Assembly: GCF_000768065.1 (NCBI RefSeq)
Contig: NZ_JRKM01000001.1
Location: 1-64,000 of the forward strand
Source of the DNA: Aquabacterium sp. NJ1
GTDB lineage: Bacteria; Pseudomonadota; Gammaproteobacteria; Burkholderiales; Burkholderiaceae_C
DNA length: 64,000 nt
Direction: 5' to 3'
Part shown: one piece after another, positions 44,082 through 64,000 of the stretch
Layout of the letters: each line of letters starts with the position of its first letter
Position numbering within the stretch: position 1 is the first letter of the stretch
Translations under genes and position numbers: made by a program
Notes under the pieces: model-generated
The model's database searches: none
Told to the model about the DNA's origin: nothing
The model's input: the letters and a program-made list of their open reading frames with translations, nothing else

Positions 44082-44435
44082 ATGGAAGAGCAAAACGTCG
44101 TTAAATCCCTCGCCGCATTGGCCCAGCCCGTGCGTTTGCGTGTCTTTCGCGCCTTGGTTGTCGCAGGGCCGCAAGGACTCACGCCCGGGGATTTGGCGGC
44201 GCAGTTGGAGGTGGCCGCCACCACACTGTCCTTCCACCTTAAAGAGTTGATGTACGCCGATCTGGTTAGCCAGGAGCGCGATGGACGTCACCTGATCTAC
44301 CGCGCGGCCTTTGAGCACATGGATGACCTGCTCGGCTATCTGACCGAACACTGCTGCCAGGGTAAGCCCTGCGCGCCCACGCCCGCCACCCCATCTGGCA
44401 AGGTCACGCGCAAGCGGGCCTGCACCACCTGCTGA
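44082..44435 (+). CDS. arsR: Arsenite-responsive repressor ArsR
   Basis: A 117-residue winged-helix repressor. The DNA-binding helix EVAATTLSFHLKELMYADLV lacks the ELCVCDL cysteine motif of plasmid R773 ArsR. Instead C91, C92 and C97 (HCCQGKPC) form a C-terminal triad like that of Acidithiobacillus ArsR, and a further CTTC ends the protein. It is the first gene of the ars operon and presumably represses it through the operator that abuts its start codon. No Shine-Dalgarno sequence is visible. Confidence 0.95.
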   Translation: MEEQNVVKSLAALAQPVRLRVFRALVVAGPQGLTPGDLAAQLEVAATTLSFHLKELMYADLVSQERDGRHLIYRAAFEHMDDLLGYLTEHCCQGKPCAPTPATPSGKVTRKRACTTC

Positions 44436-44446
44436 AAGAGCTTTCC

Positions 44447-44920
44447 ATGAAACGTTTTCATGTCCATGTGCATGTCACCGATCTGGCCAGGAACGTTGAC
44501 TTCTATTCCAAGATGTTCGGCACCCAGCCAGCCCGGCTCGAAGCAGACTACGCCAAGTGGATGCTCGATGAACCCGCTGTCAACTTCGCGATTTCAACGC
44601 GCGGACACGGCCATACCGGCGTTGATCACCTGGGCATCCAGGTTGACACCGAAGCCGACCTGCAGGCCATGAAGGCCCAGGCTCAGGCCGCCGACCTGTC
44701 ACTGATTGACGAAGGGGCCACCACTTGCTGCTACGCCCAAAGCGACAAGCATTGGATCGTCGATCCCCAGGGCCTGCCCTGGGAGCACTTCCAGACGCTG
44801 GGCAGCATCCCTGTGTTTCGTGAAGGCGAGCCGGTGCAGGCTGAATCAGCCAGCGCTTGCTGCACGCCCAAGGTCACGGGCAAGCCGATTGGCATCCCGG
44901 TCAAATCTTCGTGCTGCTGA
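44447..44920 (+). CDS. arsI: ArsI/CadI-type C-As lyase
   Basis: A 157-residue dioxygenase of the vicinal oxygen chelate fold that cleaves the carbon-arsenic bond of methylarsenite. Metal ligands are likely H5 or H7, H61 and E113 (PWEHF). The adjacent cysteines C94-C95 in ATTCCYAQSDK, which bind the arsenical in ArsI, are present. The tail holds two more Cys pairs (ACCTPK, SSCC). It lies 11 bp behind arsR. CadI-type cadmium induction is an alternative label for the same family. Confidence 0.9.
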   Translation: MKRFHVHVHVTDLARNVDFYSKMFGTQPARLEADYAKWMLDEPAVNFAISTRGHGHTGVDHLGIQVDTEADLQAMKAQAQAADLSLIDEGATTCCYAQSDKHWIVDPQGLPWEHFQTLGSIPVFREGEPVQAESASACCTPKVTGKPIGIPVKSSCC

Positions 44921-44928
44921 GGCCAAAC

Positions 44929-45423
44929 ATGAACGATAAGTTGTTGAATGTTCTGTTCATTTGCACAGGTAACTCGGCCCGCTCCATCTTGGCAGAGGGC
45001 ATCCTCAATGCCATGGGCGGTAACCGTTTCAAGGCGTATTCGGCAGGTAGCCACCCTAGAGGGGAGGTGCATCCGATGGCGCTTGACGTGCTCCAACGGC
45101 TGGGCATGGCTCAAGACGGCTTTCGCAGCAAGAGCTGGGACGAGTTCGCTTCGCCCGATGCGCCCGTGATGAACTTTGTCTTCACCGTTTGCGACAACGC
45201 CGCTGGCGAGATCTGCCCGGTTTGGCCGGGGCAACCACTGACGGCGCATTGGGGTGTTTATGACCCTGCAGCCATGGATGGCAGTGACGACAAGCGGCGT
45301 CAGGCCTTCAATGACGTTGCGCAGATCCTCAAGCGCCGTATCGAGTTGATGCTGGCCTTGCCTCCGCACAGTCTGCATGCCTTGTCCATCCAGGCCCAAC
45401 TCAACGCCATTGGCAAAATTTGA
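44929..45423 (+). CDS. arsC: Arsenate reductase, low-molecular-weight phosphatase type (copy 1)
   Basis: A 164-residue protein with the CX5R loop in LFICTGNSARSILAEGILN (nucleophile near residue 13) and the distal Asp region WGVYDPAAMDG. Reduces As(V) to As(III), probably coupled to thioredoxin or glutathione. The second and third redox cysteines of the staphylococcal enzyme are not in their usual place; C-D-N-A-A-G-E-I-C is present near 84-92. Followed after 8 bp by a second, diverged copy. Confidence 0.9.
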   Translation: MNDKLLNVLFICTGNSARSILAEGILNAMGGNRFKAYSAGSHPRGEVHPMALDVLQRLGMAQDGFRSKSWDEFASPDAPVMNFVFTVCDNAAGEICPVWPGQPLTAHWGVYDPAAMDGSDDKRRQAFNDVAQILKRRIELMLALPPHSLHALSIQAQLNAIGKI

Positions 45424-45431
45424 AGCCCACC

Positions 45432-45935
45432 ATGACCACCCACGTTCTGATCCTTTGCACGCATAACTCCGCCCGCAGCGTGCTCTCCGAAGGCATGCTC
45501 AATCACCTTGCCGCCAAGTTGGGCAAAGACGTCAAGGCACACAGTGCAGGCAGCGCGCCCAGCGGCCGCCTGAATCCCTTCGCCATCGAAGCCCTGAACA
45601 ACGCGGGTATCGACACATCGGCCTACCGCAGCAAAAGCTGGGACGAGTTCAGCACCGACGGCGCACCGCCCCTGTCCATCGTCATCACGGTGTGCGACAG
45701 CGCGGCTGCCGAGACTTGCCCGGTGTTCTTTGGTGGCAAGGGGCAGCCTGTCAAGGTGCACTGGGGCTACCCCGATCCGTCTAACGCCGAGGGCGGGGAC
45801 GAAGGCAAGCGCCGTGCGTTCGAGCTGACGCGCCAGGCCATTGGCTACAAGATGCTGCAGTTGCTGGCTTTGCCGCTGGACACCATGGATCAGGGTGCCT
45901 TGCTGGTGGCCCTCAACGACATTGCCCGCAGCTGA
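45432..45935 (+). CDS. arsC: Arsenate reductase, low-molecular-weight phosphatase type (copy 2)
   Basis: A 167-residue paralogue of the preceding gene. The CX5R loop is LCTHNSARSVLSEGML, the CDSAAAETCP segment near residue 85 matches the redox pair of copy 1, and WGYPDPSNAEGGDE carries the distal Asp. The ATG at 45432 is preferred to an in-frame TTG at 45420 inside copy 1. The Thr-His in the loop (against Thr-Gly in copy 1) may change substrate preference. Confidence 0.9.
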   Translation: MTTHVLILCTHNSARSVLSEGMLNHLAAKLGKDVKAHSAGSAPSGRLNPFAIEALNNAGIDTSAYRSKSWDEFSTDGAPPLSIVITVCDSAAAETCPVFFGGKGQPVKVHWGYPDPSNAEGGDEGKRRAFELTRQAIGYKMLQLLALPLDTMDQGALLVALNDIARS

Positions 45936-45946
45936 GGACATTGACG

Positions 45947-47029
45947 ATGAACACCACCACTGCCGCCCTGGCACCGCGCCAACCGGCCCCCGAGCCCATG
46001 AGCGTCTTCGAACGCTACCTGACTGTGTGGGTCTTTCTGTGCATCGTGATCGGCATTGTGCTGGGCCAGGTGCTGCCCGGGGTCTTTCAGACCATCGGCC
46101 ATATGGAAGTCGCCAAGGTCAACCTGCCTGTGGGCCTGCTCATCTGGGTGATGATCATCCCGATGCTGGTCAAGGTGGACTTTGGCAGCCTGTCGCAGGT
46201 CAAGCAGCACTGGAAGGGCATCGGCGTGACCCTGTTTGTCAACTGGGCGGTCAAACCCTTCTCGATGGCGTTGCTGGGCTGGCTCTTCGTGCGCCACCTG
46301 TTTGCGCCTTACCTTCCTGCTGGTCAACTCGACAGCTACATCGCGGGCTTGATCTTGCTGGCCGCCGCACCCTGTACGGCCATGGTGTTTGTGTGGAGCC
46401 GCCTGACCGGTGGCAACCCCCTGTTCACCCTGTCGCAAGTGGCACTGAATGACAGCATCATGGTGTTTGCGTTTGCCCCCATCGTGGCGCTGTTGCTGGG
46501 CCTGTCGTCCATCGTCGTGCCCTGGGACACCCTGGTGACCTCGGTGGTGCTGTACATCGTGATCCCGGTGGCCTTGGCCCAGATGTTGCGCAAGGCACTG
46601 CTCCAGCGCGGCCAGGCGGCCTTTGATGCGGCATTGGCCAAGATCGGCCCGTGGTCTATCACCGCCTTGCTGGCCACACTGGTGCTGCTTTTTGCCTTCC
46701 AGGGTGAAGCCATCATCAAGCAGCCCCTGGTGATTGCCATGTTGGCGGTGCCCATCCTGATCCAGGTCTTCTTCAACTCGGCACTGGCTTACTGGCTCAA
46801 CCGCCGCGTGGGTGAATCGCATGAGGTGGCCTGCCCATCGGCCTTGATCGGCGCCAGCAACTTCTTCGAGCTGGCCGTGGCCGCCGCCATCAGCCTGTTC
46901 GGCTTCGAGTCGGGCGCGGCACTCGCCACCGTGGTGGGCGTGCTGATCGAGGTGCCCGTGATGCTGCTGGTGGTCCGTGTGGTCAACCAGAGCAAGGGCT
47001 GGTACGAGCAAGGGCAATGCAGAGCATGA
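45947..47029 (+). CDS. acr3: Arsenite efflux transporter Acr3
   Basis: A 360-residue transporter of the BASS superfamily with 10 predicted helices. The essential cysteine of Acr3 is in LAAAPCTAMVFVWSRLTGGNP (helix 4), and the NSALAYW and LIGASNFFELAVAAAISLFG regions are characteristic. It exports arsenite or antimonite with the proton gradient. The ATG at 45947 is used; its stop overlaps the next arsC start by 4 bp (ATGA). Confidence 0.95.
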   Translation: MNTTTAALAPRQPAPEPMSVFERYLTVWVFLCIVIGIVLGQVLPGVFQTIGHMEVAKVNLPVGLLIWVMIIPMLVKVDFGSLSQVKQHWKGIGVTLFVNWAVKPFSMALLGWLFVRHLFAPYLPAGQLDSYIAGLILLAAAPCTAMVFVWSRLTGGNPLFTLSQVALNDSIMVFAFAPIVALLLGLSSIVVPWDTLVTSVVLYIVIPVALAQMLRKALLQRGQAAFDAALAKIGPWSITALLATLVLLFAFQGEAIIKQPLVIAMLAVPILIQVFFNSALAYWLNRRVGESHEVACPSALIGASNFFELAVAAAISLFGFESGAALATVVGVLIEVPVMLLVVRVVNQSKGWYEQGQCRA

Positions 47030-47451
47030 GCACCGTCACGATCTTTCACAACCCAATGTGCGGCACCTCCCGCAACACCCTGGCTTTGATTCGCAATGCG
47101 GGTATTGAGCCACAGGTGATCCACTATCTGGAAACGCCACCGAGCCGTGACGAACTGGTCCGGCTGATTGCCGCTTGCGGCAAGTCAGTGCGTGAGGTCC
47201 TGCGCAGCAAGGGCGAGGTCTATGACGAACTCAAACTGGATGACACCAAGTGGACGGACGACGAGTTGCTGGACTTCATGATCGCGCACCCGATCCTGAT
47301 CAACAGGCCCATCGTGGTCACGCCCATGGGTACGCGGCTGTGTCGTCCTTCCGAGTCGGTGCTGGACATCCTGGCGCAAGCCCAGCAAGGCCCCTTCACG
47401 AAAGAAGATGGTGAAGTGGTGATCGATGAACAGGGGCGTCGCCTTGTCTGA
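47026..47451 (+). CDS. arsC: Arsenate reductase, glutaredoxin-dependent type
   Basis: A 141-residue ArsC of the plasmid R773 family. The active cysteine lies in [18 protein letters not shown] and the arsenate-binding arginines in [23 protein letters not shown]. It is the third arsenate reductase in the operon and of a different fold from the two phosphatase-type enzymes. It is translationally coupled to acr3. Confidence 0.96.
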
Positions 47452-48175
47452 ACAATCCGATTTATTGGCGGATCTGCCGCAGGTGGCGGCCGAGCACTTT
47501 CAGGTGCCGGACCTGCCCCGTCTGCGTTCGACGCAACCCTCGACGCACGCGCCGCGCTTTTTGCTGCTGTACGGTTCTTTGCGGCAGCGCTCTTTCAGCC
47601 GCCTGGTGGTCGAAGAGTCAGCGCGCTTGCTGCAGGCCATGGGGGCCGACGTGAAGATATTCAATCCCAGCGGCTTGCCGTTGCCGGATGATGCGCCAGA
47701 CACCCACCCCAAGGTCGTCGAGTTGCGTGAGTTGACAAACTGGTCCGAAGGCATGGTGTGGTGCTCGCCTGAGCGCCATGGCGCGATGACCGGCATCATG
47801 AAAGCGCAGATTGACTGGATCCCCTTGAACAGCGGTGCCGTTCGCCCCACGCAAGGCAAGACCCTGGCGGTCATGCAGGTCAGCGGCGGCTCGCAGTCGT
47901 TCAATGCGGTCAACCAGATGCGGGTGCTCGGGCGCTGGATGCGGATGATCACAATCCCCAACCAGTCCTCGGTGGCCAAGGCCTTTTTGGAGTTTGATGA
48001 GCACGACCGCATGAAGCCCTCCAGCTACCACGACCGTGTGGTGGATGTGCTGGAAGAGTTGGTCAAGTTCACCTTGCTCACGCGTGACGTCGCGCCTTAT
48101 CTGGTGGACCGCTACAGCGAGCGCAAGGAAAGCGCAGAAGCTTTGATGAAGCGCGTCAACCAGGCGGCGATCTGA
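47426..48175 (+). CDS. arsH: ArsH organoarsenical oxidase
   Basis: A 249-residue NADPH-dependent FMN reductase family protein. The FMN-binding P-loop is [19 protein letters not shown], then [23 protein letters not shown]. ArsH oxidises methylarsenite to the less toxic pentavalent form and can reduce quinones. The start at 47426 overlaps arsC by 26 bp; a later start is possible. It is directly adjacent to the sigma factor gene. Confidence 0.95.
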
Positions 48176-49896: not shown

Positions 49897-50130
49897 ATGA
49901 AAGACATCAAGGTTCTGGGCTCCGGCTGTGCCAACTGCAAGACCACCATCGCGCTGATCGAGCAAATTGCCCATGAGAAGGGCGAGGAGATCAAGATGGA
50001 CAAGGTGCAAGACATGCGGGCCATCATCGGCTATGGCGTCATGTCCACCCCAGGCGTGGTCATCGATGGCAAGGTGGTGCACGCGGGTGGCGTGCCCAGC
50101 CGTGACAAGATTGCGCAGTGGTTCGCATGA
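49897..50130 (+). CDS. Thioredoxin-like redox-active disulfide protein
   Basis: A 77-residue Thioredoxin_3-type protein with CxxC in LGSGCANCKTTIALIEQIA and the cis-Pro segment MSTPGVVIDGKVVHAGGVP. It may reduce or hand over metal to the ArsP permease. The N-terminal domain of the ArsA fusion at 56947 is a paralogue. The stop overlaps the osmC start as ATGA. Confidence 0.9.
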   Translation: MKDIKVLGSGCANCKTTIALIEQIAHEKGEEIKMDKVQDMRAIIGYGVMSTPGVVIDGKVVHAGGVPSRDKIAQWFA

Positions 50131-50571: not shown

Positions 50572-51855
50572 ATGATGAATACCACTGCGCTGCCCTTGAA
50601 CACCGCCGAAGCACTCAACCTGGGGTGCTATTGCCGCACGCTGAGCACCGACAAGTTGCAAGGTCAGTTGGAGAAAGACGCCAGCTTGGCGGGCATGGCG
50701 CAAGACATCGCCCGCACGCGCCCGCACCTGTTTTCCTCCACCGTGGTCTTTCTGTCCCAGCCGGTTGTCGAGCAGATGCGGTTGGCCGTGCAAGCGCTGG
50801 AGCGCGTCATGGCGCAACCTGCGTACCAGTCCCAGGCGTTGGCGCGCGCACCGGCCATCGCCCGACATGACTTCGGTCCCCTGGGCATGTTCATGGGCTA
50901 TGACTTCCACCTCGGGGCGCTCGGGCCCAGGCTCATCGAGGTCAATACCAATGCGGGTGGCGCCATGCTCAATGCGGCACTGTCCCGAGCCCAGCAATCG
51001 TGCTGCGAGGTCATGAACTGGGCATTTCAGCCTGACCCCACGCTGGTAGGTTTGGAAGATGCGTTCTTTGAGATGTTCACCAGCGAATGGCGCAGCCAGC
51101 GGGGCGACGCGCCCATGGGCCTGGTGATCATCGTGGACGACGATCCCGCCGCTCAGTACCTGGCGCCCGAGTTCGAGCTATGCCGCCAGATGCTGAAACA
51201 GCGCGGCCTGGATGCCCGGATCGTGGCGCCCGAAGCCCTTGAATGGCGCGATGGTCAGTTGCGGGTTGATGGCAGCGTGGTCGGCATGGTCTACAACCGG
51301 CTCACCGATTTCTACCTGGCCGAGCCTGCGCACGGCGCTTTGAAAAGTGCCTATGAAGCCGGCGCCGTGGTGATGAGCCCGCACCCGCGTGCACATGCTT
51401 TGCACGCCGAGAAGCGCAACTTGGTCGCCCTCAGCGACACGGCGCTGCTGGCAGCATGGGGCGTGAGCGAGGCCGATCGTGCGCTGCTGGCGGCGGTGGT
51501 GCCACCCACCGTGCAGGTCACGCCCGAGCGGGCTGAGGAACTTTGGGCGCAACGCCGCCAGTGGTTCTTCAAGCCCGAATCGGGCTATGGTGGCAAGGCC
51601 GTCTACCGCGGCGACAAGCTGACGCGCCGCGTCTGGCAGGACATCACCTCGGGCGGTTTCGTGGCGCAGGCGATGGTGCCGCCCAGCGGGCGCCTGATCG
51701 AGGTAGACGGCGTGCAGACCGACCTCAAGTTCGACATCCGGGCCTACGCTTACGCAGGGCAGGTGCAGCTCCTGGCTGCGCGCATGTACACCGGGCAGAC
51801 CACCAACTTCCGCACGCCCGGTGGTGGGTTTGCGCCTGTCGTCATCGTGCCTTAG
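50572..51855 (+). CDS. ATP-grasp-like ligase of unknown substrate
   Basis: A 427-residue protein. The central RLIEVNTNAGGAML and C-terminal WFFKPESGYGGKAVYRGDKL and TDLKFDIRAYAY segments look like the nucleotide- and metal-binding parts of an ATP-grasp fold. Cysteines in LGCYCRTL open the protein. ATP-grasp ligases join a carboxylate to an amine or thiol, for example glutathione synthase. It is followed by a class II amidotransferase 9 bp later, suggesting a two-enzyme step in thiol or peptide metabolism linked to metalloid resistance. Product unknown. Confidence 0.7.
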   Translation: MMNTTALPLNTAEALNLGCYCRTLSTDKLQGQLEKDASLAGMAQDIARTRPHLFSSTVVFLSQPVVEQMRLAVQALERVMAQPAYQSQALARAPAIARHDFGPLGMFMGYDFHLGALGPRLIEVNTNAGGAMLNAALSRAQQSCCEVMNWAFQPDPTLVGLEDAFFEMFTSEWRSQRGDAPMGLVIIVDDDPAAQYLAPEFELCRQMLKQRGLDARIVAPEALEWRDGQLRVDGSVVGMVYNRLTDFYLAEPAHGALKSAYEAGAVVMSPHPRAHALHAEKRNLVALSDTALLAAWGVSEADRALLAAVVPPTVQVTPERAEELWAQRRQWFFKPESGYGGKAVYRGDKLTRRVWQDITSGGFVAQAMVPPSGRLIEVDGVQTDLKFDIRAYAYAGQVQLLAARMYTGQTTNFRTPGGGFAPVVIVP

Positions 51856-51864
51856 GAAATAGCC

Positions 51865-52686
51865 ATGTGTGAACTCCTGGCCATGTCCAGTTCGCGACCA
51901 AGCCACCTGACGTTTTCACTTCAGGCCTTGACCGAGCACTCGGTGCACGGCAGTCGAGATGGGTGGGGCGCAGCGTTCTACGCGGGGCGCGATGTGGCGT
52001 TGTTTCGGGAACCGGGGGCTGCCAGTGGCAGTGCTTTGGTCGATTTTTTGCAGACCCAGGGACCCAGCACGACGCTGGCCATCTCCCACATCCGGCACGC
52101 AACGATGGGCGAGGTGGCACTGGCCAACACCCAGCCGTTTGTGCGAGAGGTGATGGGGCGGATGCACGCGTTCGCCCACAACGGCAATTTGCCCGGCGTT
52201 CAGCATCACCCCGGTCTGACCCTGGGTCGGTACCGGCCCCTAGGCAACACTGATTCTGAACATGCATTTTGTGTGTTGCTGGACCGAATCCATGAACTGT
52301 GGACCACCACCGAGGTGCCCACGCTGGATGCACGGCTGAGTGTGATCTCAGCCTTTGCAAGCGAACTGCGTCAACTGGGTCCAGCCAATTTTTTCTACGC
52401 AGACAGTGATGTCCTGTTTGCCCATGGTGACCGTCGGCTGCAGGCAGAGGACGGGCGCACGCGATCGCCTGGACTGTGGGTGCTGGAGCGCCGATGCGAG
52501 GATAGCGACAAGGCGCTGCATGCCGATGGCATATCGGTCGATCCCGGGTTTCAGGACCTCGTGCTGATCGCGAGTGTCGCCTTGACTGATGGGCCTTGGA
52601 GGGCCTTTGCTGAAGGGGAACTGGTGGCCATAACAATGGGCACGGTGCTCAAATCGGTCAGCCTTGATGAACCTCCACGGGCATGA
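51865..52686 (+). CDS. Class II glutamine amidotransferase (YafJ/EgtC-like)
   Basis: A 273-residue Ntn hydrolase. The catalytic cysteine would be Cys2 (MCELLAMSS) after loss of the first Met. SRDGWGAAFYAG, ISHIRHATMGEVALANTQPF and AHNGNLPG are the class II glutaminase motifs. YafJ-like proteins and EgtC (gamma-glutamyl hydrolase of ergothioneine synthesis) are the closest named types. The tight spacing to the ATP-grasp gene suggests a joint reaction involving a gamma-glutamyl group. Confidence 0.88.
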   Translation: MCELLAMSSSRPSHLTFSLQALTEHSVHGSRDGWGAAFYAGRDVALFREPGAASGSALVDFLQTQGPSTTLAISHIRHATMGEVALANTQPFVREVMGRMHAFAHNGNLPGVQHHPGLTLGRYRPLGNTDSEHAFCVLLDRIHELWTTTEVPTLDARLSVISAFASELRQLGPANFFYADSDVLFAHGDRRLQAEDGRTRSPGLWVLERRCEDSDKALHADGISVDPGFQDLVLIASVALTDGPWRAFAEGELVAITMGTVLKSVSLDEPPRA

Positions 52687-54315: not shown

Positions 54316-54522
54316 ATGTGCATGGGATACGCCAAAGACATTGCCATCTGGGCCTGCGAAACAGAACTGAAGCGCCGTCAAGACGCTTTGATCCTCTGGG
54401 GAGAGGCCTTGCTTGAGCGCAACATTGATGGTGACGGACCGGATGCTCAAAGCAGGCATACGCCAAGCTCGAAAGAAGCAGACCATGGTTTGAAGGTGAA
54501 CAAGACAGTGGCCATGGCATGA
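54316..54522 (+). CDS. Small protein coupled to the P1B ATPase
   Basis: A 68-residue hydrophilic protein beginning MCMGYAKDIAIWACETELKRRQDALILWGEALLE, with two early cysteines and a helical first half. AAGGAGAG lies 7 nt before the ATG, and the stop overlaps the ATPase start by 4 bp. It is therefore probably translated and coupled to the ATPase. No family was recognised; a metal-binding or regulatory accessory role is speculative. Confidence 0.6.
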   Translation: MCMGYAKDIAIWACETELKRRQDALILWGEALLERNIDGDGPDAQSRHTPSSKEADHGLKVNKTVAMA

Positions 54523-56882
54523 CCGAAAAACTCTCGCTGCAGTTGGCGCTCGTCCTGCCAGGGGTGCCGGACGAACGGGATGCCTGTATCCAGCGATTGA
54601 CGGATGTGTTGCAGGCACAAGGGCTGGAGAAAGTGCATGTGACCCAGCAGGATGGCAAGCCCCTGCTGTGCCTTCACTACGACCCTACGACCATCAGGCC
54701 GACTCAGGTGCGGGACATGGCGCAGGCAGCCGGTGCCCAGCTCAGCGCGAGGTACCAGCATGAGCTGATGCGCATCGACGGCATGGACTGCGCCACCTGT
54801 GCCACCGTGATTGAGCACGCCTTGCAGCGTCTGGAAGGCGTCGAAGAAGCGGCCGTCAGTTACGCGGCCGAACGAATGCGTCTGGAGTACGACACCCAGC
54901 GCGTGTCTCGCCAAGCCATCGTGCAGCGTCTCCAGGCACTGGGGTATAGCGTGCGGGAGCCTGAGCACGAAGAGACCTGGTTTGAGCAATACCGGGAGTT
55001 GATCGTGAGCGCCGCCGCGGGCGCGTTGCTGCTGGCCGGATGGCTGGTGGGCACGAGGCAAGGTGTGAGCACCCCACTCGTATCCGCCGGTTTGATGGGT
55101 GCATCGATGGTGATTGGCGGCTACTACGCCATGCGCGATGCCTGGCAAAGCATCCGAGAGCGGGTGCTGGACATTGACGTGCTGATGATCGTGGCGGCCA
55201 TGGGCGCGGCGGCCCTGGGGCAATGGGCGGAAGGGGCGCTCCTGCTGGTGCTGTTCAGCCTGGGCCACGCCTTGGAACACCTGGCCATGGACCGCGCCCG
55301 CCATGCCATGGAGGCACTGGCCAACCTGGCACCCAAGACAGCCCTGGCTCTGCGTGATGGTGCGGAGCTGGAGTTGCCCGTAGAAAGCCTGCAGCGGGGT
55401 GACCAGGTGCTGGTCAAGCCAGGTCAGCGCATCGCGGCAGACGGCAAAGTGCTGGAAGGCGTCTCGGCCGTCAATCAGGCGGCCATCACCGGCGAGTCGA
55501 TGCCGGTGGACAAGGCGGTCGATTCCCTGGTGTTTGCCGGGACCGTGAACGGTGAGGGCTTGCTGCGCGTCGAGGTGACCAAGCTGGCCAGGGACAGTTC
55601 ACTGGCGCGCATGGTGCATCTGGTGGCCGAGGCGCAAACCGAGAAGTCGCCGACCCAGCGCTTCGTCTCACGGTTCGAGAAGGTCTTTGTGCCTTTGGTC
55701 CTGCTGGGCGTGGCGGCGCTGATCGTGATCCCACCCTTGCTGGGCATGCCCTTTGCCGAATCGTTCTACCGGGCCATGGCCGTGCTGGTGGCAGCCTCGC
55801 CGTGTGCCTTGGCCATTGCCACGCCTTCGGCCGTGCTGGCTGGCGTGGCCCGTGCCGCACGGGGCGGCGTGCTGATCAAGGGGGGCATGCATCTGGAGAA
55901 CTTACGCAGCTTGTCGGTCATGGCGTTTGACAAGACAGGCACGATCACGACGGGCAAACCCAGCGTCACCGATGTGATCGCCCTCGATGGCAGCGAAGCT
56001 GATTTGCTGACCATGGCCGCGAGCATCGAAAGCCGCAGCGGGCATCCGTTGGCTCAGGCTGTGGTGCAGGCCGCACGCGCACGCCAGTTGGCCTGGCCCG
56101 AGGCCACCGATGTGCAGTCCGTCACCGGCAAAGGCATGCACGCGGTGGTGTCGTCCAGACCGGTGAGCATCGGCAACCTGCGCTTGTTTGAAGCCGAAGG
56201 GGTGCCCGATACCGTTCGCACGCAAGTGCTCGGCCTGGAAGCGCTTGGCAAAACCACCATGTTGGTGCGACGTGAGGGCACCTTTGTAGGTTTGCTCGCT
56301 TTGGCGGACACCCCGCGTCTCGGCATGCGCGACGTGTTCGCCCAGTTGGCGTCCTTGGGCATCCGCCAGACCGTCATGCTCACAGGGGACAACGAGCCTG
56401 TCGCGAAGGCAGTTGCGGCCTCCGTGGGCATCACAGATGTGCGCGCTGGCCTGCTGCCCGAGGACAAACTCAAGGTCATCGATGAGCTGATGCGTGACCA
56501 CCAGCAAGTGGCCATGGTCGGGGATGGCGTGAACGACGCTCCCGCGATGGCTCGCGCTACCATCGGCATTGCCATGGGTGGCGCAGGCACCGACGTGGCC
56601 CTGGAAACCGCCGATGTGGCCCTGATGGGGGATGACCTGTCGAGGCTACCGTTTGCCATCGCACTGAGCCGTGCCTCGCGCAGCATCATCCAGCAAAATC
56701 TCTGGGCGGCATTTGGGGTCGTGGCGCTGCTCATCCCTGCCACCCTGTTGGGACTGGCGAGCATGGGTGTGGCTGTGTTGATTCACGAGGGTGCCACGGT
56801 CTTGGTGGTGCTCAACGCCTTGCGCCTATTGCGTTTCAGGGAGCCCAAAGCTGGACGGGCAGGGCAAACAGGCGCACAGTGA
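54519..56882 (+). CDS. P1B-type heavy-metal ATPase with SPC motif
   Basis: A 787-residue metal efflux ATPase. Residues 1-75 look like a degenerate HMA domain without CXXC. The second HMA domain has C91 and C94 (GMDCATC). Eight helices are predicted, with the membrane metal site S427-P-C429 (ASPCALAIATP). The phosphorylated Asp is D471 (DKTGT), the SGHP and GDGVNDAP motifs are present, and HEGAT lies in the last helix pair. SPC with HEGxT is the P1B-4 signature (Co/Fe/Zn), but such pumps usually lack a CXXC HMA domain. Substrate is therefore uncertain. Confidence 0.93.
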   Translation: MTEKLSLQLALVLPGVPDERDACIQRLTDVLQAQGLEKVHVTQQDGKPLLCLHYDPTTIRPTQVRDMAQAAGAQLSARYQHELMRIDGMDCATCATVIEHALQRLEGVEEAAVSYAAERMRLEYDTQRVSRQAIVQRLQALGYSVREPEHEETWFEQYRELIVSAAAGALLLAGWLVGTRQGVSTPLVSAGLMGASMVIGGYYAMRDAWQSIRERVLDIDVLMIVAAMGAAALGQWAEGALLLVLFSLGHALEHLAMDRARHAMEALANLAPKTALALRDGAELELPVESLQRGDQVLVKPGQRIAADGKVLEGVSAVNQAAITGESMPVDKAVDSLVFAGTVNGEGLLRVEVTKLARDSSLARMVHLVAEAQTEKSPTQRFVSRFEKVFVPLVLLGVAALIVIPPLLGMPFAESFYRAMAVLVAASPCALAIATPSAVLAGVARAARGGVLIKGGMHLENLRSLSVMAFDKTGTITTGKPSVTDVIALDGSEADLLTMAASIESRSGHPLAQAVVQAARARQLAWPEATDVQSVTGKGMHAVVSSRPVSIGNLRLFEAEGVPDTVRTQVLGLEALGKTTMLVRREGTFVGLLALADTPRLGMRDVFAQLASLGIRQTVMLTGDNEPVAKAVAASVGITDVRAGLLPEDKLKVIDELMRDHQQVAMVGDGVNDAPAMARATIGIAMGGAGTDVALETADVALMGDDLSRLPFAIALSRASRSIIQQNLWAAFGVVALLIPATLLGLASMGVAVLIHEGATVLVVLNALRLLRFREPKAGRAGQTGAQ

Positions 56883-56946
56883 TTCGGCTGTCGGCCCGTC
56901 GTTGCGCTGAAAATGCCGTCAAGAATTCAAACCAAGGATCATCGTC

Positions 56947-58950
56947 ATGGAAATCAAAGTTCTAGGCTTGGGGTGCAGCAAGTGCCATATCACCATCGAG
57001 ATGATCGAGCGGGAAGCCAAAGCTTGCGGCGTCGCCGTAGAGGTCATCAAAATCGAGAACCCGGACGAGATCAAGCGCCTGGGCGTCAAGGCCACGCCTG
57101 CCGTCATGATCGGTGACCTGATCGTGCACAGCGGTGGCTTGCCATCGCATGAAGCCGTGCAGTCCTGGCTCAAGCCGCAGCCCCACCATCAACCACTGGG
57201 CTTTCTGAGCCGTCCAACCAGGCATCTGTTCTTCACGGGCAAAGGTGGCGTCGGCAAGACCTCACTGTCCACCGCAACCGCGCTGACGCTGGCAGACGCG
57301 GGCAAAAAAGTCTTGCTGGTAAGCACGGACGCGGCGTCGAACCTCGATGAGATGCTCGGTATTGAGCTTCGCAACATCCCCACGCCCGTGCCTGGCGCGC
57401 CAGGGCTGTCGGTGCTCAACATCGACCCGGATGTGGCAGCTGAGACCTACCGCCAGCGTGTCCTGGCACAAATGGAGGCGCAAACCACCGAGGCTGAGCG
57501 GGCCACGGTGCGCGAGCAGTTGTCCGGCTCCTGCACAACCGAGATCGCATCCTTCGACGAGTTCTCAAACCTGCTGGCGGGTGACGCCGCCGACTACGAC
57601 CACATCGTGTTTGACACGGCGCCAACAGGGCACACGCTTCGCCTGTTGAGCCTGCCCAAGGCCTGGAGCGGCTTTCTCAAGGACAACGACCGGGGCGCCT
57701 CCTGCCTGGGACCGCATTCGGGACTGAAGATGCAGGAAGTGCGTTTCAATGCGGCACTCACCGCCCTGTGCGACCCGGTGCTCACCACCATCGTGCTGGT
57801 GGCGCGTGCCGACCGCAGCGCGCTGGCCGAAGCGGCGCGCACCTCCGATGAGTTGCGCGCGCTGGGTTTGAACAACCAGCAGTTGGTGATCAACGGTGTG
57901 TTCAAGGCCACCGACCCGAATGATGGCGTCGCCCGCGCCATCGAGGCCCTGGGTCAACAAGCGCTGGACGCGATGCCCGAAGCCCTGCTGGCCTTGCCCC
58001 AAAGCACTGTGCCTTTGCGAGCGTTTGACACGGTGGGCCTGCCAGCCTTGCGCGCCTTGTTGACCGACTCGCCACCAGCCAACGGGCAAGCTCACTCATT
58101 GAACGATGAGTTGCCCCTCTCAACGGAACACATCGACAAACTGGTGGACGAGTTGGCTGCGACCGGGCGCGGCCTGATCATGGTGATGGGCAAAGGCGGC
58201 GTCGGCAAGACCACGATCGCAGCGGCGCTGGCCATCGGCCTGGTCAAGCGCGGGCATGCGGTTCACCTGAGCACCACCGACCCGGCTGCTCACCTGGCCA
58301 TGACGCTCGATGGCGAATTGCCTGGCTTGCAAGTCGGGCGCATTGATCCCAAGGTGGAAACCCAGCGCTATATCGACAAGATCATGGCGACGCGTTCGCC
58401 TGGGCTGGACGAACAAGAGCGTGCGTTGCTGCTGGAAGATTTGCAGTCGCCCTGCACCGAAGAGGTCGCTGTGTTCCATGCGTTCTCGCGCACGGTGGCA
58501 GAAGCGCGCAGTGCCTTCGTGGTGCTGGACACGGCGCCCACCGGCCACTCGCTGTTGCTGATGGATGCCACCGGGGCTTACCACCGGCAGATGACGCGTG
58601 AGTTCGAGGGCAAGGCCTCCGTGCATGTGGTCACGCCGCTTATGCGACTGCAAGATGCCAGCTACACCCGCATCATCCTGGTCACGCTGCCGGAAGTGAC
58701 GCCGGTGTCCCAAGCCGCGGCCCTACAGGATGACTTGCGTCGCGCCAAGATTGAACCGTATGCATGGGTGGTCAACAAGTCCATCCTGGCAGCGGGTACC
58801 CATGACCCCTTGCTGCAGGCCCGACTGGATGGCGAGCGGCGGCAGATGGCCAGGTTGGCGGCTGGACTGGCTCAGCGGACCTTTGCCGTGCCATGGGTCG
58901 CGCAAGCGCCCGTCGGTCTGACGGCGTTGTCTGCGTTGCTGGCGTCATGA
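56947..58950 (+). CDS. arsA: Thioredoxin-like domain fused to arsenite ATPase ArsA
   Basis: A 667-residue fusion. Residues 1-76 form a Thioredoxin_3-like domain with C10 and C13 (LGLGCSKCHITIEM) and the cis-Pro segment KATPAVMIGDLIVHSGGLP. Residues 92-380 are the first ArsA half with Walker A GKGGVGKTS (98-106), a signature DTAPTGHTLRLLSLP and the metal cysteine in LSGSCTTEIASFDEFS. Residues 405-665 are the second half with GKGGVGKTT (415-423), DTAPTGHSLLLMD and the metal cysteine in LQSPCTEEVAVF. ArsA normally receives arsenite from the separate chaperone ArsD, itself a thioredoxin-like fold. No arsD is in the window, so the fused domain may replace it. The pump partner would be Acr3. Confidence 0.93.
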   Translation: MEIKVLGLGCSKCHITIEMIEREAKACGVAVEVIKIENPDEIKRLGVKATPAVMIGDLIVHSGGLPSHEAVQSWLKPQPHHQPLGFLSRPTRHLFFTGKGGVGKTSLSTATALTLADAGKKVLLVSTDAASNLDEMLGIELRNIPTPVPGAPGLSVLNIDPDVAAETYRQRVLAQMEAQTTEAERATVREQLSGSCTTEIASFDEFSNLLAGDAADYDHIVFDTAPTGHTLRLLSLPKAWSGFLKDNDRGASCLGPHSGLKMQEVRFNAALTALCDPVLTTIVLVARADRSALAEAARTSDELRALGLNNQQLVINGVFKATDPNDGVARAIEALGQQALDAMPEALLALPQSTVPLRAFDTVGLPALRALLTDSPPANGQAHSLNDELPLSTEHIDKLVDELAATGRGLIMVMGKGGVGKTTIAAALAIGLVKRGHAVHLSTTDPAAHLAMTLDGELPGLQVGRIDPKVETQRYIDKIMATRSPGLDEQERALLLEDLQSPCTEEVAVFHAFSRTVAEARSAFVVLDTAPTGHSLLLMDATGAYHRQMTREFEGKASVHVVTPLMRLQDASYTRIILVTLPEVTPVSQAAALQDDLRRAKIEPYAWVVNKSILAAGTHDPLLQARLDGERRQMARLAAGLAQRTFAVPWVAQAPVGLTALSALLAS

Positions 58951-62127: not shown

Positions 62128-62751
62128 TCAAGCTCTTCGGTGAAAGTCCCTGATCGCTGTCCCCATCAGCGTGCCGATGACCACAGGCACGCATGGCACG
62201 GCCAGGGGGTGCAAGGTGATGGGCAGCACAAACGCCAGGACGGTTGCGCAACTGGTCAGGATGGCCAAGCAGGCATACAAGGCGAACATCTCCGGGCTGT
62301 GGTGCAGGAACTCCTTGGCTTTGACCAGTCGCACAAGGCAGCCATCCACCAAGGCAGCAGCCGGGAAGGCCAACAGCCAGGGGAGCCACTCCAGCAGCAT
62401 GGCCAGGCGGAAGCTGGCGAGCAGCAGCAGTGCGTCAATCGAGCGGAAGTAGGGGTTGTTGAACAGCCGTTGGTTGACCGAGGCCATTTCTCGCCCGACT
62501 GCTGCGTTGACGCCATCCACGGGGCCCGCGTCTTTGGATGAGGGGACGGGTGATGCCTGACGTGCAGCATGCTGCATGCTCATCGCACGCGACAGCATGC
62601 GGATGCCCGCGTCTTTGCCCCAGAACACCGCCGCATTGGCGTATTCCGTGCGCAGTTGCTCTATGAACCGTTCTGGCGGGTGGGCGGACGGCACATAGAG
62701 CACCAGAACCAGCAATGCCAGCAGAGACACCACGGCCATCGCCCTGATCAT
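62128..62751 (-). CDS. DUF4400 integrating conjugative element membrane protein
   Basis: A 207-residue membrane protein with one N-terminal helix, a polar loop with SRAMSMQHAARQ, a LFNNPYFRSIDALLLLASFRLAMLLEWLPWLLAFPAAALVDG region and two more C-terminal helices. This is the DUF4400 family, regularly encoded directly after traD in ICEs. The ATG overlaps the traD stop by 4 bp. Function unknown. Confidence 0.88.
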   Translation of the reverse strand: MIRAMAVVSLLALLVLVLYVPSAHPPERFIEQLRTEYANAAVFWGKDAGIRMLSRAMSMQHAARQASPVPSSKDAGPVDGVNAAVGREMASVNQRLFNNPYFRSIDALLLLASFRLAMLLEWLPWLLAFPAAALVDGCLVRLVKAKEFLHHSPEMFALYACLAILTSCATVLAFVLPITLHPLAVPCVPVVIGTLMGTAIRDFHRRA

Positions 62752-64000
62752 GCCGCCCTCCTGATGGGTTGATCGTCCCCTTGCGCATCCGGATCCAGGA
62801 TGGGGAAGCGGCCTTTGATGATGCGCCCGCCAGACACCGAGGCAAAGTACTGAAGGTTGGGCAGTTTGCCCAGGACATCGGCGGGCACCATCTCCTCGAA
62901 GCTCTCGGAGAGCTGGCTTGAATAGCTGGTCGAGAAGTCACCCAGATGGGTGTCTGCACCATGCCCCAGCCCAACGCGCATTGAGTGGATGGCGGTCTTG
63001 CCAAAGGTCTCCACGATGAAATCCTGCGTGGGGCGATCCTTCGATCGCAGGGCGATCAGGTTGTTCAGGTTACCCAGAGCCATGCGCGCCGCCGCTTCGC
63101 TGCCCAGGCGTTTGGCCAAGTCGGCAAGTGTCTGCATCGCACAGGTGGTGTAGATACCGCCTTCCGCACCCTTGTTGAGGATCTCGATCAAGGGCTGGTT
63201 GATGACGTTGGCCACCTCATCCACAAACAGGGCAATGCGCCGGTAACCGCCCAGGTTGTAGCGCATGCCCGCCCGTGCGGCCAGGTCGGCCAATGCCAGT
63301 GCGCCGATGGCAGATGCCACCGAAGGGTCCGGCAGCGAATCCAGGCACATGTACAGCACATGTCCGCCGCGCTCGATTTTCTCGAAGTTCATGATCGGGC
63401 GCATGTCGTTGGCGTCGAACGGGTCGGGCGACAGCGTGCGGCCCAGGTCGCCCGAGGTCAGCATCGACAGCACGGGCAACAGGTTGGCGGTGATCTTCTG
63501 GTAGTGCTCGCGGTTGTGCCTGAAGGTTCGCACCTGGGCATCGATCACCTTGCTGCGTTGTGACTGGGCAATGTGGTGTTCGTAGTACGCGACGAAAGCC
63601 ATCAACTCGGCGCTGGCAGCTTCTGATGGACGCTTCATGTGGCCTCGATGGGCCTCCTGCATCAGCTTCTTCATCTCGGGCAACTCGCGCCAGGCGGGCC
63701 CTAAAGTTTCCTCATAGAAGCGGCGCAGAGAGCCCTCCAGCACGGGTTCGATGCCACCCTCGATGTAGCGGGTCAGCTTGGCCAGGTTGGGTCGTTCTTC
63801 CAGTTCGACCAGGCCTTGGACGACCACGTTGACCGCATCCCAGCCGAAGGCGGAGAACGCGCCAGCCGTGTCCGGCGGCATGATCGATTGGATGCGGGAT
63901 GCAATCTCGGTGGGCTTTTGCCAGTTGAAGGTGAAGTCCAGCCGCACACCGGCTTCCGGGAAGGCCGGGTGAAACTCCATGAAGGTGTCGGGCTCACGCC
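62748..64000 (-). CDS. traD: Coupling protein TraD (N-terminus beyond window)
   Basis: The C-terminal 417 or so residues of a SXT/TOL-class conjugative coupling ATPase; the frame remains open through the right edge. GYRRIALFVDEVANVINQPLIEILNKGAEGGIYTTCAMQTLADLAKRLGS is the Walker B and following region, and ALGNLNNLIALRSKDRPTQDFIVETFGKT the C-terminal ATPase part. The Walker A part lies outside. TraD would pump relaxase-bound DNA into the F-type channel encoded at 22085-43199. Confidence 0.93.
   Translation of the reverse strand, partial: REPDTFMEFHPAFPEAGVRLDFTFNWQKPTEIASRIQSIMPPDTAGAFSAFGWDAVNVVVQGLVELEERPNLAKLTRYIEGGIEPVLEGSLRRFYEETLGPAWRELPEMKKLMQEAHRGHMKRPSEAASAELMAFVAYYEHHIAQSQRSKVIDAQVRTFRHNREHYQKITANLLPVLSMLTSGDLGRTLSPDPFDANDMRPIMNFEKIERGGHVLYMCLDSLPDPSVASAIGALALADLAARAGMRYNLGGYRRIALFVDEVANVINQPLIEILNKGAEGGIYTTCAMQTLADLAKRLGSEAAARMALGNLNNLIALRSKDRPTQDFIVETFGKTAIHSMRVGLGHGADTHLGDFSTSYSSQLSESFEEMVPADVLGKLPNLQYFASVSGGRIIKGRFPILDPDAQGDDQPIRRAA

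Follow-up and report, generated by a model that had tools for sequence, protein, structure and literature searches.

A thioredoxin domain fused to ArsA in Aquabacterium sp. NJ1 and its relatives

The fusion gene and its surroundings

The window, by which we mean the whole analysed stretch of 64,000 nucleotides from Aquabacterium sp. NJ1, carries a same-strand cluster of arsenic genes, which also includes a SigZ-type sigma factor and OsmC, and a gene in which a thioredoxin-like domain stands in frame before ArsA. The features are as follows:

44082..47451, + strand: arsenic genes (ArsR-like, ArsI-like, two ArsC, Acr3, Grx-type ArsC), by similarity to annotated genes of loci L093/L094, Acr3 by TIGR00832
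45941-47029, + strand: Acr3 (TIGR00832, 395.9 bits vs 282.8)
47426..48175, + strand: ArsH-like gene, 83% to the annotated arsH of L094
48820..49872, + strand: ArsP_1 permease (PF03773, E 3.3e-74)
49897..50130, + strand: free Thioredoxin_3 paralogue (Pfam, NCBIfam, domain tree)
54519..56882, + strand: heavy-metal P1B ATPase, 64 bases upstream of the fusion (Pfam, NCBIfam)
56934..56938, + strand: AAGGA, ribosome-binding-like, 8 bases 5' of the ATG, read directly
56947..58950, + strand: thioredoxin-ArsA fusion gene, 667 aa, zero internal stops (Pfam, NCBIfam)
56947..57174, + strand: Thioredoxin_3 domain of the MtH895/ArsE type, residues 1-76 (Pfam; AF2 pLDDT 93.8; nearest PDB fold 1ilo)
56974..56985, + strand: CxxC (C10-S-K-C13); C13 in 47/47 and C10 in 46/47 full-length fused domains
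57175..57213, + strand: short linker, residues 77-89, the least conserved part (mean pairwise identity 0.41)
57238..57261, + strand: Walker A of half A1 (GKGGVGKT), read in the sequence and alignment
57532..57534, + strand: C196, equivalent of E. coli ArsA C113, in LSGSC (alignment to 1f48)
57703..57705, + strand: C253, equivalent of E. coli ArsA C172 (alignment to 1f48)
58189..58212, + strand: Walker A of half A2 (GKGGVGKT), read in the sequence and alignment
58453..58455, + strand: C503, equivalent of E. coli ArsA C422, in LQSPC (alignment to 1f48)

The ArsR-like gene is annotated merely as a helix-turn-helix protein in L093 and L094, and the two ArsC are, judged by their motif, presumably of the LMW type.

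The coordinates, strand, length and domain layout of the fusion gene are those given by the sequence-only reading. Both Walker A motifs and the metal cysteines in LSGSC and LQSPC held up in direct reading and in the alignment to 1f48, and C10 and C13 were again found within the 76-residue Thioredoxin_3 domain. Residues 1-76 matched Pfam Thioredoxin_3 (E 5.6e-19), and the protein matched Pfam ArsA_ATPase in two stretches (E 1.2e-86). With NCBIfam TIGR04291 (arsen_driv_ArsA) it scored 723.8 bits, above the equivalog cut-off of 650. The alignment also contains counterparts of H148, S420 and H453 of E. coli ArsA, which we take to be metal ligands together with C113, C172 and C422. The AF2 model of the whole protein reached a mean pLDDT of 76.5 and a pTM of 0.71, and Foldseek placed the closed ArsA of L. 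ferriphilum (9nbw) nearest to it, with a TM of 0.91 by target length. In every test of ArsA membership that could be made, the protein came out as an ArsA. It has the same two halves, P-loops and metal ligands as the known members (TIGR04291; E. coli 1f48, L. ferriphilum 9nbl/9nbw) but differs from them by the additional N-terminal thioredoxin and by belonging to an ArsD-free ArsA group.

Alignment, AF2 model and fold match all show a compact thioredoxin fold with a CxxC for the N-terminal domain, as in the MtH895/ArsE family. In a fold search with the domain alone, MtH895 (1ilo) came first, followed mostly by thioredoxins, with ArsD (3mwh) at rank 45 by E-value. MtH895/ArsE is the best match in both structure and sequence; the member with a solved structure, 77 residues long, stands alone, whereas the domain here is fused. 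Against NCBIfam TIGR00412, the domain of the window scored 58.2 with a cut-off of 62, which 14 of the 17 other fused domains exceed. ArsD (PF06953; 3mwh), the partner of ArsA, also has a thioredoxin-like fold, but its CCxxxxC and its C-terminal CC pair are absent from the fused domain, and its gene stands on its own, next to ArsA of another group. The fusion gave no match to PF06953, and the fused domains have two conserved cysteines, whereas C12, C13 and C18 were kept in all 17 of the ArsD sequences. The domain is a thioredoxin that appears to be of the MtH895/ArsE type, not an ArsD.

Because our class of intact domains was picked by the CxxC pattern, we state the frequency of this motif over all 47 full-length fused domains, that of the window and that of L063 included; 46 have it, the exception being L063, which has lost the first cysteine. 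C13, T50, P51 and G63 are invariant in the 47 sequences. Mean pairwise identity amounts to 0.59 for the domain and 0.79 for ArsA. In 16 hand-chosen close pairs, some with dS >1, the dN/dS of the domain (Nei-Gojobori) ranged from 0.10 to 0.39 in 16/16, vs 0.04-0.17 for ArsA. This shows that the domain is under purifying selection where it is present and hence does something where it is retained.

Spread, origin and repeated loss of the fused domain

Of 408 encoding loci in genome contigs, we examined the 80 best. An intact in-frame CxxC domain precedes ArsA in 45 of them, one domain lacks the first cysteine (L063), one is cut by the contig end (L068), 11 loci carry remnants and 22 have no domain. 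Both P-loop lysines (K104, K421) and the six metal ligands are kept throughout, in 45/45 intact, 11/11 remnant and 22/22 domainless loci; in the remnant locus L083 ArsA is interrupted by a stop. Of the 397 genomes in a family-level sample, which overlaps with the 80 loci in some of the same contigs, 122 contained ArsA (E<=1e-60). Counting as fused those matches that start at residue 1 or 2 (G743 is cut by the contig end), 18 genomes are fused, including that of Aquabacterium sp. NJ1. An order-level sample of 399 genomes had 40 with ArsA and two with the fusion, that of Aquabacterium sp. NJ1 included; in a class-level sample of 370 genomes, it was the only fused one of 11 with ArsA.

The fused architecture is therefore real, as the sequence-only reading had proposed, and a sequencing read-through artefact is ruled out by the recurrence of the same fusion in 45 of the 80 related loci and in 17 further genomes of the family sample. 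Of 2230 plasmid records 60 were listed, and among these a match over nearly the full query occurred once, in Ideonella dechloratans, with Trx_3 and arsA as separate genes. At L093 of this organism the two adjoin, 7 bases apart, in an Acr3-ArsP cluster, and the Trx_3 groups with the free domains rather than in the fused clade. One fused gene, L028, sits on a contig labelled Schlesneria (Planctomycetota) and falls within the same clade as those of Burkholderiales, which reflects either a transfer or a binning error.

Searches of the literature on the architecture or its parts, in which few subscription journals were covered, did not find the thioredoxin-ArsA fusion. Genes for redox-active disulfide protein 2, of the MtH895/ArsE family, occur in ars operons, as does arsA together with acr3 (Castillo and Saier 2010, PMC2963123); in the searched part of that text the word "fused" is absent and "fusion" appears twice, each time on a different subject.

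In a tree of the domains, 46 of the 47 fused ones formed one clade against nine free ones (support 100/100). The free paralogue at 49897, considered earlier as a possible source of the fusion, lies outside this clade and is not supported as the source. The remaining fused domain, of L021 (8001-9989), grouped with another free type (99/99) and may represent a second, independent fusion, with a single clade of all 47 not being rejected (p-AU 0.204). From the single clade, an MtH895/ArsE-type thioredoxin would have been joined to ArsA once, probably long ago and in or near Burkholderiales.

The domain has been eroded many times. The 11 loci with remnants only, a class detectable where ArsA remains recognisable, lie dispersed between intact relatives in the ArsA tree, a quick tree (LG+G4) with long-branch warnings for L095out and L096. 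Given its starred branches, the remnant label must change 7 times or more, equally few changes being needed in 34 of 500 shuffles, and the intact label 11 times or more. DNA comparison of remnants with intact relatives uncovered clean deletions that leave the start region in place and ArsA in frame, of 72 bases in L060, 132 + 6 in L047, 162 in L069 and 138 net in L072; in L083, L092 and L086 such comparisons yielded no single clean breakpoint. A CxxC persists in some remnants (L050, L060).

The second arsA of the genome itself (L099) has a deletion of 234 bases, about the whole domain, with the upstream region retained, including the AAGGA; its ArsA is, in addition, interrupted midway and split into two frames. 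It belongs to a second ars cluster (C1:2158000-2177000) with Acr3, ArsP, a free Trx_3 and a thiolase.

From the start regions retained in the deletions we infer that translation of ArsA begins at the thioredoxin start codon. Since ArsA was kept while the domain was repeatedly deleted, despite purifying selection where it is present, the domain looks like a useful add-on, an accessory rather than a required part.

ArsD and efflux genes among the relatives

According to a review of ars genes, arsD and arsA are nearly always adjacent (PMC6205960). The absence of arsD noted earlier for the window could be extended to the whole genome (17 contigs, completeness 100), in which PF06953, whose control matched only in Lactococcus lactis, found no ArsD; on this search, an arsD elsewhere in the genome is rejected. 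For partner searches we used 80 hand-chosen genomes of the 121 other ArsA genomes: 17 fused, 42 near unfused and 21 distant. The 42 are the best-scoring unfused genomes of the near ArsA group, those whose match stops short of full length, remnants included, with 68-87% identity over the aligned part vs 53-55% in the distant group, the two groups being set apart by match identity.

Within the sample, ArsA divides sharply into a group that uses ArsD and a group free of it. ArsD scored above the cut-off in all 21 distant genomes, where it directly adjoins ArsA, vs 1/17 fused and 1/42 near unfused ones. In these two exceptions, G737 and G532, it adjoins a second ArsA, of the distant group, so that ArsD stands at a near-group ArsA in none of the 59 sampled genomes, fused or unfused; a match in G657 below the cut-off (22.2 bits, away from its arsA) was left uncounted. 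As an association in this sample, the near ArsA group works without ArsD. The domainless relatives do so likewise, so the fusion is not needed to dispense with ArsD and, judged from these gene contents, ArsD-independence does not appear to hinge on the fused domain.

An ArsE-type thioredoxin (TIGR00412) other than the fused one was present in 0/17 fused, 9/42 near unfused and 4/21 distant genomes; 33 of the 42 near unfused genomes have neither ArsD nor an ArsE-type thioredoxin. The counts of 0/17 vs 9/42 (p 0.048, uncorrected for kinship) point weakly to a mutual exclusion of fused and free domains. The genome of Aquabacterium sp. NJ1 breaks this pattern with two free domains and one fused, and when it is added (1/18) p becomes 0.26.

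Among the efflux proteins, Acr3 exceeded the cut-off in 11/17 fused, 28/42 near unfused and 14/21 distant genomes, and its distance from the near-group arsA was no more than 1 kb in 8/17 fused and 7/42 unfused ones. In the window Acr3 lies about 9.9 kb upstream of the fusion on the same strand, and a second Acr3 is found elsewhere in the genome. ArsB (E<=1e-30) was detected in 0/17, 0/42 and 5/21 genomes, respectively, by a search that matched 1 of 14 controls and missed E. coli, a control that we expected to hold arsB. Among the loci, L036, L050 and L078 do hold ArsB. ArsP_1, searched in the fused genomes only, occurred in one of the 17. By the same models, 6/17 fused genomes have neither Acr3 nor ArsB, and 5/17 are also without ArsP. 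In flanks of up to 8 kb, 29 of the 45 intact loci showed no Acr3, ArsB, aquaporin, ArsH or ArsC, and among the non-ars neighbours of fused genes no family was common to more than a few loci.

In L014 (6075-6773), L015 (4851-5552) and L058 a major intrinsic protein of the aquaporin family takes the place of Acr3 in the ars operon. The L014 gene was tested with PF00230, and similar genes occur in L071 and L076.

Possible roles of the tethered domain

New here are a near ArsA group without an ArsD partner, fused or not, and a domain that is selected where it is kept yet repeatedly eroded. This bears on how ArsA obtains arsenite without ArsD. We favour, with a probability of about 0.45, a two-half, ArsD-free ArsA with a tethered, accessory thiol reductant of the MtH895/ArsE type, a role that is read from its fold and motif. 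The tethered CxxC would keep the metal-site cysteines of ArsA in, or return them to, a reduced, arsenite-receptive state; the reduced ArsA would then deliver arsenite to an efflux protein, in many cases Acr3. Other cellular thiols could replace the domain, which may be why it has been deleted so often. We count in favour of this reading the metal ligands and P-loop lysines, the CxxC, T50-P51 in 47/47 domains, the dN/dS values, the MtH895 fold with two cysteines, the single clade and the nearby Acr3 of 8/17 fused genomes, and against it the fused genomes with neither Acr3 nor ArsB and the intact loci devoid of the counted partner genes.

The sequence-only reading had suggested a built-in metallochaperone or reductant. 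Of this, two points stand: the domain is a conserved dithiol module linked in cis with ArsA, and ArsD is absent. The domain as a simple stand-in for ArsD is not supported: unfused relatives also have no ArsD at their near-group ArsA, most of them have no ArsE-type thioredoxin either, and the domain has repeatedly been lost. The main rival to the tethered reductant is nevertheless an ArsD-like metallochaperone, whose C10/C13 dithiol would bind As(III) and hand it over to the ArsA site. It gains from the absence of ArsD beside near-group ArsA, from free ArsE-type genes found next to ArsP permeases both in the window and at several loci, and from the fold shared with ArsD, including a distant match over 55 columns of the cis-Pro half (hhalign, 95.8%). 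The cysteine loop, however, lies outside that match and a third conserved cysteine is absent, and together with the ArsD-free unfused members, 33/42 of them with no TIGR00412 domain at all, and the repeated losses this speaks against a metallochaperone, which we hold to be less likely than the reductant.

A bolder idea is that thioredoxin-ArsA forms a self-contained, redox-primed arsenite ATPase, independent of ArsD and of classical pumps, with an unrecognised membrane partner or a Get3-like, redox-controlled role. Its basis is the five fused genomes without Acr3, ArsB and ArsP and the aquaporin-family gene in the ars operons of L014 and L015. We hold it to be improbable, at odds that are slightly lowered by the E. 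coli control which the ArsB search missed.

In much the same low range, and a shade beneath, we place a domain that reduces the thioredoxin-type (LMW) ArsC and so releases arsenite next to ArsA. An LMW-type ArsC accompanies 14 of the 16 intact loci that have any counted ars gene, and a Trx-ArsC complex (2ipa) stands at rank 13 among the fold matches of the domain, but such ArsC are equally common beside domainless (8/9) and remnant (3/4) genes, and 31 of the 45 intact loci have no ArsC in their flanks. We consider it very unlikely that the domain is a relic without function that is being lost, with the fusion persisting only for the start codon of ArsA: the forced changes of the remnant label in the quick tree, the clean in-frame deletions and the first cysteine lost in L063 agree with it, but purifying selection in all 16 pairs and the CxxC retained in all full-length domains but one speak against it.

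Least likely, with very small odds, is that the fused ArsA handles another metal together with the neighbouring P1B ATPase, which the earlier reading had brought up on the grounds that the gene sits with a P1B ATPase rather than with Acr3. The arsenic cluster of the window, overlooked in that reading, does contain Acr3. Besides the short distance of 64 bases in the window, this idea has in its favour a close whole homologue of the ATPase (94%) directly upstream in L013, the only such case among the 80 loci; L018, L049 and L050 carry just fragments, and the P-type ATPase of L057 is distant (about 30%) and in pieces. The P1B ATPase is not a conserved partner of the fusion. As it is so rarely upstream while Acr3 lies within 1 kb in 8/17 fused genomes, it is a poor hint of a non-arsenic metal, and the canonical ArsA metal ligands and the relatives located with Acr3 and ArsC likewise argue against one.

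Returning to the tethered reductant, the losses have left natural matched pairs of close ArsA with and without the dithiol domain, even inside one genome, in which the fusion was undone repeatedly while the start codon stayed. These pairs, together with the split between the two ArsA groups, make a helper role of the domain directly testable.

Some further observations concern the neighbouring genes. The P1B ATPase (54519-56882) contains an HMA domain together with SPC and HEGAT motifs, a combination that we take to be P1B-4-like. The product of 50572-52686 is ATP-grasp-like by eye, with no Pfam or NCBIfam match, and its gene adjoins one for a class II glutamine amidotransferase. One or both genes have homologues in L013, L015, L016, L024, L032, L047 and L052, and the two are possibly an arsenic-linked small-molecule module. 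On the minus strand, an ORF at 62748-63980 resembles, by eye, a conjugation coupling protein, a hint that an integrative element adjoins the ars cluster.
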